Below, piece by piece: positions 44,383 to 47,243 of a stretch of DNA of 64,000 nt. The number at the start of each line of letters is the position of its first letter. The first letter of the stretch is position 1. Origin of the DNA: Spirochaetaceae bacterium (GTDB lineage Bacteria > Spirochaetota > Spirochaetia > Treponematales > Treponemataceae). The DNA is taken from contig JAGBFB010000021.1 of the NCBI GenBank assembly GCA_017936665.1, positions 1-64,000 of the forward strand, in the 5' to 3' direction. The notes beneath the pieces were generated by a model. It was not told where the DNA came from. It searched no databases and worked only from the letters and a program-made list of their open reading frames with translations. The translations under genes were made by a program, and so were the position numbers.

Positions 44383-44547
44383 CTACATTCCGTGTTTAAT
44401 GCGGTCATGCTCTTCGGCTCGTTTAGCATCGTTAAAACGATCTAGAGTTCCTACAAGATAACCAGTGATTCGTCGAATTCTTTCAAATTCAACACCTTTA
44501 CCAAGTTTAGCTTCAATGTTTGTGCTAATTTTTTCTTTTGTTTCCAT
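44383..44547 (-). CDS. Small separate glycyl-radical domain of class III ribonucleotide reductase
   Basis: This 54-residue protein matches the extreme C-terminus of class III NrdD. It reads FERIRRITGYLVGTLDRFNDAK and ends DRIKHG, like the RRTCGYLG...RVKH tail that holds the radical glycine in phage T4 and bacterial enzymes; the candidate glycine is G29. The neighbouring large NrdD lacks this tail, so the gene probably supplies the radical site in trans. AGGGG precedes the ATG by 6 nt. It lies 368 bp after nrdD and 29 bp before nrdG. It could also be a spare part that repairs cleaved enzyme, as GrcA does for pyruvate formate-lyase. Confidence 0.82.
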   Translation of the reverse strand: METKEKISTNIEAKLGKGVEFERIRRITGYLVGTLDRFNDAKRAEEHDRIKHGM

Positions 44548-44915
44548 AAAATCCCCTAATTAAAAGTCTGTGAGAAAATATCAATTTTCGAACAGACTTT
44601 TAAGACGCTATTTCGCAACGAAGTGAGAAATAGCAGTAAATAAAGAAGTTTGCAAAGCAAACTCTAACTGAAAAGTGAAGCACCATTTGTGCGAAGCTTT
44701 TCAGTATATCCCCTAATTAAAAGAATGCGAGAAAATATCAATTTTCGAGCAGACTTTTAAGACGCAATTTCGTAACGTAGTGAGAAATTGCAGAAAATAT
44801 ATGAGTTTGCAAAGCAAACTCAATATGAATTATGAGGTACTATTTGTACCGAACAATTCATAAAATCCCCTAATTAAAAGTATACGATTATTATAGATAA
44901 ATCGCAAAACTAAAA
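44548..44915 (-). repeat. Two tandem 157-bp hairpin units between nrdD and the glycyl-radical gene
   Basis: Unit A is 44724-44880 and unit B 44567-44723, each exactly 157 bp; a third start (CTTTTAATTAGGGGAT) forms the ribosome site of the small gene. Each unit has four hairpins. Examples in unit B (plus strand): TTAAAAGTCTGT/ACAGACTTTTAA with a GA/GA internal loop and inner GAAAAT/ATTTTC; GCTATTTC/GAAATAGC; AGTTTGC/GCAAACT; CTGAAAAGT/GCTTTTCAG with a GAA/GAA loop and inner GCAC/GTGC. In unit A several pairs change on both sides (GCAATTTC/GAAATTGC, GTAC/GTAC, ATGAATT/AATTCAT). A 13-codon open frame starts in unit A. Confidence 0.85.
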
Positions 44916-47243
44916 TTATTTTTTCCAATTTGCTAAGTAAGGAATATTTCTATATTTCATTCTTAGCTCTTGCATTTTTTCTTCTGTAATTGGTTCTCCT
45001 GTTTTGCGTCCACAACGAGGACAAACTTCACCAATTACTCCCACATAACCACAAAGTGGGTCTCTATCAACTGGATGGTTAATTGAACCATATCCAATTC
45101 CTGCATCATGCATACAACGAACGATTGCTTCAAATGCTTCTACATTGTTAGCTGTATCTCCATCAAGTTCTACATAACTGATGTGTCCTGCATTTGTTAA
45201 AGCATGATAAGGTGCTTCAATTTTAATTTTATCAAAAGCAGAAATTTTATAATAAACAGGAACATGGAAAGAGTTTGTGTAATAATCTTTATCAGTTATT
45301 CCTTTTATTATTCCGTAACGCTTTTTATCCATTCGTACAAATCGTCCTGAAAGACCTTCGGCAGGAGTTGCAAGAAGTGTAAAGTTTAGTTGTTTTTCTG
45401 CACTTAAATCATCTAAGTATTTTCGCATAAATCCAACGATTTCAAGACCTTTTTCTTGCATTTGTTCACTTTCACCATGATGATGACCGTACAAGGCTGT
45501 TAATGTTTCTGCAAGTCCGATAAATCCGATACTTAAAGTTCCGTGTTTTAGAACTTCACCAACTGTATCATTGTATCCTAGTTTATCACTATCAATCCAA
45601 ACACCTTGTCCCATTAAGAAAGGAAAGTTGTAAACATGTTTTCTACTTTGGATAGCAAATCTATCTAAAAGTTGTCCAACAACTAAGTCCATCATCTTTT
45701 TTAAGTCACGATAGAATTTATCGATATCGCCTTTTGCTTCGATTGCAATTCTAGGCAAGTTAATTGATGTGAATGATAAGTTTCCTCTTCCTGGTGAAAC
45801 TGATTTTGAAGGATCAAAAACATTTGCCATAACACGAGTTCTACATCCCATGTATGAAACTTCTGTTTCTGGATGACCTGGTTTGTAATATTGCAAATTG
45901 AAAGGACTATCTAAGAAACTGAAGTTAGGGAAAAGTCTTTTTGCAGAAACTTCACATGCTTGGATAAATAAATCGTAGTTAGGATCACCTTCGTTGTAGT
46001 TTACACCTTCTTTCACACGGAAAATCTGAATAGGGAAGATAGGTGTTTCGCCCATTCCAAGCCCTGCTTCTGTGGCTTTAAGAATATTTCGCATAACCAT
46101 TCGTCCTTCTGGACTTGTATCAGTTCCGTAGTTGATAGAACTAAATGGTGTTTGTGCTCCAGCTCTAGAGTGCATTGTATTTAAGTTGTGAATCAAGGCT
46201 TCCATTGCTTGATATGTAGCTTTTTCTGTTTCGCGATAAGCTTCTTTAACTGCAAAATTTTGAGCTTTAGAAATAACTTCTTCTGAAAAACCTTTACTTA
46301 AAAGAATATTTTTTTCTTCGTTTAGATAATCTTTATCAGTTGTAATTTGTGGATAATGTCCTGTTTTCTTTTCAATTTCTGATGCGATTTCTTTTAAATC
46401 AAAAAGAGTAAGTCCACCTTGGATTCCATTAGATTTATCTTCTGTTGTATCAGGTTCATTTGATGGTGCTAAAATTTCTAATGATTTATAGAGATTGGTT
46501 GAGTAAAATTTTTTATAAGTTTTTGTAACACCAGGAGCTAATCCGTAATCAAAATCTACGATGGATTGTCCTCCATGTTGGTCATTTTGATTTGACTGAA
46601 TTGCGATACATGCTAAAGCAGAGTAACTTTGAATATCGTTTGGTTCTCTTAAAAATCCGTGACCAGTAGAAAATCCACCTTTAAAAAGTTTTGTAAGCTG
46701 AATTTGACAACAAGTTGTTGTTAATGAATAAAAGTCAAAGTCGTGAATATGGATATCGCCATTTTTGTGAGCATCTGCTTGTTCTTGTGTAAGAAGATAT
46801 TTTTCGTAATAATCTTTTGCAGCTTCGCTACCGTACTTTAACATTGTACCCATGGCTGTATCGCCATCAATATTTGCGTTATCTCGTTTTAGGTCACTTT
46901 TAGTTGCATCAACATTTGTAAGTTCATCAAAAACTTTCATTAAGTGAGTGTTCATTTCGCGAACACGAGTTCTTCCTGCACGATAAAGAATATATTGCTT
47001 TGCTGTTTCTTCAAAGCCTGCACTCATCAAGTCTTTTTCTACTTGGTCTTGAATTTGTTCAATTGTTGGAGGATTTACACCACAGAGTTTTTCTAGCGAT
47101 GCTTCTACAGAATTTGCAACTCCTGCTGCATCGGAAGCATCTCCTTCTCCAGAAGCTTGCATTGCTTTTAAGATAGCTTGTGCGATTTTGTCTTCGTTGT
47201 ATAAAACGACACGACCATCACGCTTTTTAATGCTTTTAATCAT
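44916..47243 (-). CDS. nrdD: Anaerobic (class III) ribonucleoside-triphosphate reductase large chain (NrdD), lacking its glycyl-radical tail
   Basis: NrdD reduces ribonucleotides for DNA synthesis without oxygen. The 775-residue product has an N-terminal ATP-cone (KKRDGRVVLYNEDKIAQAI), the catalytic barrel (CIAIQSNQNDQHGGQSI, HSRAGAQTPFSSINYG, FTSINLPRIA) and a C-terminal metal-site region DPLCGYVGVIGEVCPRCGR. Canonical enzymes then continue into an R-x-x-GY glycyl-radical loop; here the chain ends about 29 residues later at NIPYLANWKK without it. The motif is found in the small gene at 44383-44547. The promoter carries two NrdR-type boxes. I see no frameshift that would join the two. Confidence 0.93.
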   Translation of the reverse strand: MIKSIKKRDGRVVLYNEDKIAQAILKAMQASGEGDASDAAGVANSVEASLEKLCGVNPPTIEQIQDQVEKDLMSAGFEETAKQYILYRAGRTRVREMNTHLMKVFDELTNVDATKSDLKRDNANIDGDTAMGTMLKYGSEAAKDYYEKYLLTQEQADAHKNGDIHIHDFDFYSLTTTCCQIQLTKLFKGGFSTGHGFLREPNDIQSYSALACIAIQSNQNDQHGGQSIVDFDYGLAPGVTKTYKKFYSTNLYKSLEILAPSNEPDTTEDKSNGIQGGLTLFDLKEIASEIEKKTGHYPQITTDKDYLNEEKNILLSKGFSEEVISKAQNFAVKEAYRETEKATYQAMEALIHNLNTMHSRAGAQTPFSSINYGTDTSPEGRMVMRNILKATEAGLGMGETPIFPIQIFRVKEGVNYNEGDPNYDLFIQACEVSAKRLFPNFSFLDSPFNLQYYKPGHPETEVSYMGCRTRVMANVFDPSKSVSPGRGNLSFTSINLPRIAIEAKGDIDKFYRDLKKMMDLVVGQLLDRFAIQSRKHVYNFPFLMGQGVWIDSDKLGYNDTVGEVLKHGTLSIGFIGLAETLTALYGHHHGESEQMQEKGLEIVGFMRKYLDDLSAEKQLNFTLLATPAEGLSGRFVRMDKKRYGIIKGITDKDYYTNSFHVPVYYKISAFDKIKIEAPYHALTNAGHISYVELDGDTANNVEAFEAIVRCMHDAGIGYGSINHPVDRDPLCGYVGVIGEVCPRCGRKTGEPITEEKMQELRMKYRNIPYLANWKK

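Follow-up and report, generated by a model that had tools for sequence, protein, structure and literature searches.

The closest described relative of the repeat analyzed here is TD-1 RNA, an Rfam family (version 15; RF03155, clan CL00124, gathering cut-off 64.5 bits) whose type is given as Cis-reg. The same clan includes TD-2 RNA (RF03162, gathering cut-off 48.7 bits). Two groups of short bacterial repeats also invite comparison. REP and BIME elements are mobilized by RAYT or IS200/IS605 Y1 transposases; to our knowledge, single-strand transposition does not produce duplicated ends. RUP and BOX of pneumococcus are MITE-like, that is, small nonautonomous intergenic repeats whose presence varies among strains. 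Our literature searches on TD-1, or on repeats that target Shine-Dalgarno (SD) sequences, found nothing relevant.

We analyzed a 64,000-nucleotide stretch of contig JAGBFB010000021.1 from a Spirochaetaceae bacterium (hereafter, the window), in which a preliminary description had placed tandem hairpin units between "the two halves of nrdD." The arrangement is more precisely a 775-amino-acid NrdD and a separate 54-amino-acid protein that forms the glycyl-radical end and covers only the last 31 positions of the Pfam family NRDD (PF13597, positions 532 to 562 of 562). The units between the two genes belong to the known TD-1 family (Table 1). Our reading of them, to which we assign a probability of about 0.72, differs from the cis-regulatory label of that family: they are two tandem copies of a nonautonomous, mobile-like interspersed repeat of Treponemataceae that is directed to SD sites, and not a regulator of nrd. 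The observations behind this reading are the dispersal of the element, its fixed position and orientation, its polymorphism among close relatives, the locus-specific matching of its two ends, its absence at nrdD in related genomes, and a decay of pairing that looks neutral.

Table 1. Features of the tandem array and flanking genes (positions in the window)
Feature	Position	Strand	Remarks
Downstream gene	44383..44547	-	54-aa protein, glycyl-radical (RRITGYL) end of anaerobic ribonucleotide reductase
Gene-proximal boundary	44545..44567	-	First of three copies; SD (AGGGG) and ATG of the 54-aa NrdD glycyl-radical protein gene
TD-1 unit 1, gene-proximal	44555..44711	-	Rfam TD-1 match 44555-44674, 68.3 bits, above cut-off
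Hairpin 4 of unit 1	44560..44603	-	Adjoins SD; arms 44560-44579 / 44584-44603; inner UUC/UCA internal loop (GA/GA on +)
Hairpin 3 of unit 1	44607..44634	-	GCTATTTC/GAAATAGC on +
Hairpin 2 of unit 1	44646..44664	-	GTTTGC..GCAAAC; terminator-like score on -
Hairpin 1 of unit 1	44668..44704	-	CTGAAAAG/CTTTTCAG on +
Internal boundary	44702..44724	-	Second SD copy (AGGGGATATACTG), common to both units
TD-1 unit 2, gene-distal	44712..44868	-	Rfam TD-1 match 44712-44831, 57.5 bits, below cut-off
Hairpins 4, 3, 2, 1 of unit 2	44717-44760, 44764-44791, 44805-44819, 44825-44861	-	
Outer boundary	44859..44881	-	Third SD copy, putative target duplication; CATAAAATCCCCTAATTAAAAGT on +
Upstream gene	44916..47243	-	nrdD, 775 aa

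The geometry given in the preliminary description was borne out. Two units, 82% identical, follow each other at a start-to-start distance of exactly 157 bp (44541 to 44697 and 44698 to 44854), and each has the four hairpins described, with some mismatched positions in hairpin 4 of unit 2. Tandem Repeats Finder gave the array a score of 468, compared with 59 for the next best repeat in the window. When folded as RNA, the 314-nt array is far more stable than its shuffled versions on both strands (z = -11.6 and -11.2), and the same holds when it is folded as DNA (z = -12.3 and -11.6). The UUC/UCA loops of the minus strand are the complement of GA/GA loops on the plus strand. We also found the previously noted copy of the small gene's ribosome site, and it occurs at all three copies of the boundary sequence, the third being a partial copy; each carries the SD as CCCCT on the plus strand and AGGGG on the minus strand.

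Both units match TD-1 RNA on the minus strand, which is the mRNA strand, and only unit 1 passes the gathering cut-off alone. The full length of the Rfam model corresponds to hairpins 2 to 4 plus the trailing SD, on the same strand and in the same place upstream of a gene. Neither hairpin 1 nor the SD repeated at the 5' end is part of the model, however, and the family as defined in Rfam includes no mobile-like behavior, solo scars or tandem arrays. On the plus strand, the units match TD-2 RNA below its cut-off (36.4 and 34.5 bits), and hairpin 1 of unit 1 falls within one such match (44612 to 44709). In related genomes, too, nearly every TD-1 copy has a TD-2 match on its other strand, owing to a middle hairpin common to both, and the two Rfam families therefore overlap.

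Copies of TD-2 that stand alone make up another dispersed family of hairpins, recognizable by ATCCNTG loops and a GGAACCACC-like string (for example, G016:526161, 843304, 1638787, 1697698 and 1885655, and G033:660241, among others). They have mainly the middle hairpin in common with TD-1, their outer hairpins being different, and none of the 13 copies read is placed at an SD.

The element is dispersed in the source genome, where we found 15 matches at the DNA level and 20 matches to the TD-1 model. Among 59 genomes searched, 16 had TD-1 matches; all 16 lie inside the family to which the window belongs, and none of the 23 genomes outside this family had any. Even within genera the counts are patchy (22, 0 and 12 in one genus, 20 and 0 in another, 44 and 5 in a third), such that sister species carry many copies or none. 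In the genus on which our multi-genome comparison mainly rests (g15), genomes have from 0 to 84 copies. Tandem arrays are common, and adjacent units range from identical to strongly diverged. The genes that follow the copies in the source genome are unrelated to one another, and include those for Hsp70, EF-G, an AMP-binding enzyme, and ACT, YGGT, CBS and NRDD proteins, among others.

This distribution bears on the proposal that the units are an nrd-specific structured RNA, by which the balance between the radical subunit and NrdD would be tuned. What speaks for such a role is their location between the two genes; we nonetheless give it almost no credence: about 20 copies of the same element precede other, unrelated genes, and the two nearest nrdD relatives (89% and 87% amino acid identity) have a short spacer with no TD-1 element. 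The split of nrdD itself is seen with or without the element; the gene is split in five of six relatives read (L058, L059, L060, L061 and L081) and fused in L071. The array was also said to be kept at this spot, and this is not supported, given its absence in those relatives and the gain, truncation and loss of copies among close relatives detailed below. The likeliest effect of the element on the nrd gene is none or an incidental one. Because hairpin 2 has a terminator-like score on the mRNA strand, the element may have some effect on the small gene.

The preliminary description had named occurrence of the units at random intergenic places, as a generic repeat, as one observation that would count against it. 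Dispersal as a generic repeat is indeed what we found, though the places at which the units lie are not random but almost always SD sites. With a query that lacked the SD, 65 of 70 distinct g15 loci ended at an SD and start codon at a near-constant distance, and two of the five exceptions apparently use a GTG start. The full TD-1 model gave 66 of 68 loci in this genus, and 18 of 19 copies in the source genome are placed in the same way. Every copy, read in the TD-1 sense, points toward the gene, and nearly all copies have an SD at both ends. The hairpins as drawn do not sequester the SD. One genome, G005, is an exception in that many of its copies lie in arrays with no start codon after them (L347-L355); the TD-1-like arrays of this genome often finish with an extra hairpin 1. 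We considered an upstream reading frame that starts in hairpin 1, and dropped it after finding its ATG changed to ACG or TCG in 5 of the 18 copies read in G016.

The paired changes that had been listed from the two units of the array are real, and the pattern continues in a set of 19 copies from the source genome. Across these copies, both partners have changed in 28 of 40 pairs, and there are 125 double-change cells where shuffles predict 38.9. Moreover, 95.6% of cells are paired, compared with 40 to 54% when the partners are slid. In a count over roughly 3,725 pair cells, the departures from pairing comprise 27 G-U and 24 A-C combinations, which is no excess of G-U for either strand; a crude count by position in treponeme tRNA acceptor stems gave 20 G-U and 6 A-C among 224. 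Because G-U does not exceed A-C, individual copies give no sign of being maintained as RNA, whichever strand is considered, and the decay of pairing looks neutral. The covariation lies between lineages of the element and often involves whole arms, as with hairpins that are selected or copied as DNA, or that are selected only in active copies. Of the two earlier suggestions, a structured RNA and a family of hairpin repeats, the second stands, as the units are a dispersed hairpin repeat, whereas maintenance as RNA is not visible. Covariation alone is thus no proof of RNA function, in that hairpins kept or copied at the DNA level also covary, and a count of G-U against A-C offers a simple check on RNA maintenance.

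The same count weighs on the idea that the plus strand encodes a trans-acting small RNA, as the TD-2 reading would have it. GA tandem loops would be more stable on this strand, and the TD-2 model does find both units there. The scores remain below the cut-off, the stand-alone TD-2 copies in relatives look different, and the departures from pairing have no G-U bias for the plus strand. We regard a plus-strand RNA of this kind as very improbable.

Comparison of close relatives revealed that the element comes and goes. All nine loci compared are polymorphic: a site that is filled in one genome has, in another, no element, a truncated one or only a solo scar. For g15, these comparisons used segments of 14 to 18 kb mapped by search; collinear 400-kb stretches of three g15 genomes offered only three comparable sites, with gene order differing. 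Both G016 and G060 carry the element at G016:205002 (99% identical), and the site is empty in G059, G062 and G032. The same gene at G016:1444148 varies among relatives: the element is complete, complete with a nested insertion, shortened in either of two ways (one of which leaves hairpin 1 only), or missing. A third locus, G016:487521, is full in G016, truncated in G062, and represented in G060 by a solo scar that consists of a hairpin arm and the SD.

Such scars can be counted by means of the solo string AAGTTTTTATNGGAG, of which six g15 genomes have 8 to 27 occurrences each and G030 has 23. It does not occur in eight genomes that lack TD-1, nor in G005 and G006, whose copies carry different arm sequences. 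We rejected the possibility that this string is a pre-existing target, since genomes free of TD-1 are without it; a scar is the better interpretation. Among the loci compared, we found no fully clean, single-copy empty target. For example, a pair of adjacent SD-like strings occupies the empty sites that correspond to G016:1436781, and the left and right SDs of G016:205002 are not the same.

These data also permit an assessment of the cis-regulatory label, according to which TD-1 would be a leader RNA whose hairpins, in the 5' UTR beside the SD, control translation or mRNA stability. The uniform sense orientation, the end at the SD, the strong paired changes, the terminator-like hairpin 2 on the mRNA strand and the Rfam classification are all in keeping with such a leader. 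We nevertheless consider it quite unlikely. The downstream genes have no function in common, genes that have a full copy in one genome have a truncated copy or none in close relatives, the SD is left free by the hairpins as drawn, and G-U does not prevail among the departures from pairing. If an Rfam cis-regulatory family is apparently a mobile-like repeat, then its covariation and its gene associations need to be read differently.

Further evidence comes from the two ends of each copy. The SD region at the 5' end resembles the SD at the 3' end of the same copy more than it resembles the SDs of other copies. The longest common string is 6.7 for own ends and 5.3 for others among 56 nonorthologous g15 copies, and 9.6 and 6.4, respectively, among 26 copies from three other genomes; none of 20,000 permutations reached the difference in either set. 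Locus-specific matching of this kind is expected of target duplication or of local recombination. The clearest matches span 9 to 12 bp. Where a match is longer and takes in the hairpin-4 arm, it suggests that a tandem unit was duplicated and then lost, and, because sequence of this arm lies to the left of about a third of copies, the same process could account for some of the end matches. At nrdD, the outer boundary is identical over 23 bp to the SD-ATG region of the small gene itself, as would be expected if the first insertion had duplicated it.

An explanation without target duplication is that the element has its own SD at both ends and that copies survive only upstream of start codons, the likeness of the ends being a product of tandem duplication and gene conversion. 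That nearly all copies have both SDs, that several loci have identical tandem units, and that left-arm remnants are frequent would follow from this. It leaves the fixed distance to the start codon unexplained, however, and unusual SD variants are shared by both ends of one copy only (L288, TTATTAGAGGT; L153, TTATTGGAGGT; L339, GGAGTATGTATG), including some copies with no left-arm remnant. On balance, we judge this alternative unlikely, and we infer instead that duplication of the target at insertion, rather than recombination afterwards, probably produced the matching ends.

For the SD-directed repeat that we favor, the following course of events may be envisaged, with insertion itself being putative. 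A four-hairpin copy would insert at an SD site in the direction of the gene, probably after recognition of the SD by a protein or an RNA. The SD at the 3' end of the element would stay with the gene, which would remain translatable, and a second copy of the SD region, approximately 9 to 12 bp in the clearest cases, would be left at the 5' end. Recombination between these short direct repeats could then generate tandem arrays, truncations and solo scars with an arm and an SD. Any effect on the nrd gene would presumably be incidental.

Like REP and BIME, TD-1 is a short, noncoding, multicopy hairpin element that is patchily distributed and forms tandem arrays. Unlike them, its ends look duplicated, and most of its carriers have no Y1 transposase: Y1_Tnp (PF01797) was not found in 10 of 12 carrier genomes tested, including the richest, and was present in G000 and G035. 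A Y1 transposase of the IS200/REP kind is consequently unsupported as the mobilizer. We also considered nucleases of the Rpn type (PF12784), which are abundant in many carriers, absent in two others (G033 and G020), and common in some noncarriers; their occurrence does not follow that of TD-1. Like RUP and BOX, TD-1 is small, nonautonomous and variable in presence between relatives. It differs from them in its strict SD targeting, its orientation fixed to the gene, and its lack of clear terminal inverted repeats, no shared inverted terminus having been seen in about 110 copies whose ends were read directly.

It is conceivable, though at present a doubtful proposition, that TD-1 represents a new kind of bacterial mobile element, one that recognizes an SD, inserts in the sense direction, and duplicates the SD in such a way that the host gene stays translatable. 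If SD targeting with duplication is real, it would let an insertion element settle neatly in the most sensitive position of a gene and yet leave the gene active. The strict sense orientation, the lack of inverted termini and the strong folding would also be compatible with an element that, rather like a SINE, moves in bacteria by way of an RNA intermediate. The g15 genomes, which probably belong to the T. denticola group, supply many natural pairs of empty and filled sites.

Several g15 copies of TD-1 have themselves received an insert. It is 62 nt long, bears a hairpin and follows TTGAT in the loop of hairpin 4 (L157 at 380-460; L233 near 892502-892692 of G016; L261; L263). Targets of the TTGAT kind are typical of IS200/IS605 elements, ISDra2 among them; despite these inserts, we found no Y1 transposase in G016 or G062.

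Two TD-1 copies, L024 (G000:C5:59583-59702) and L027 (G000:C13:7635-7752), lie within what appear to be Rpn-type (PDDEXK_2) nuclease genes, an identification based on the frames as read and on PF12784 hits on the same contigs. In each case, the N-terminal part of the gene precedes the element, and what follows downstream is a short C-terminal part that has an SD and ATG of its own, as if an internal SD had been used by the element. A palindromic stretch of unrelated sequence interrupts an Rpn-type gene at L165 (G016:63700-64420); it too finishes with an SD and ATG, ahead of the C-terminal part. The PF12784 hits suggest that several Rpn genes in G016 are similarly split.
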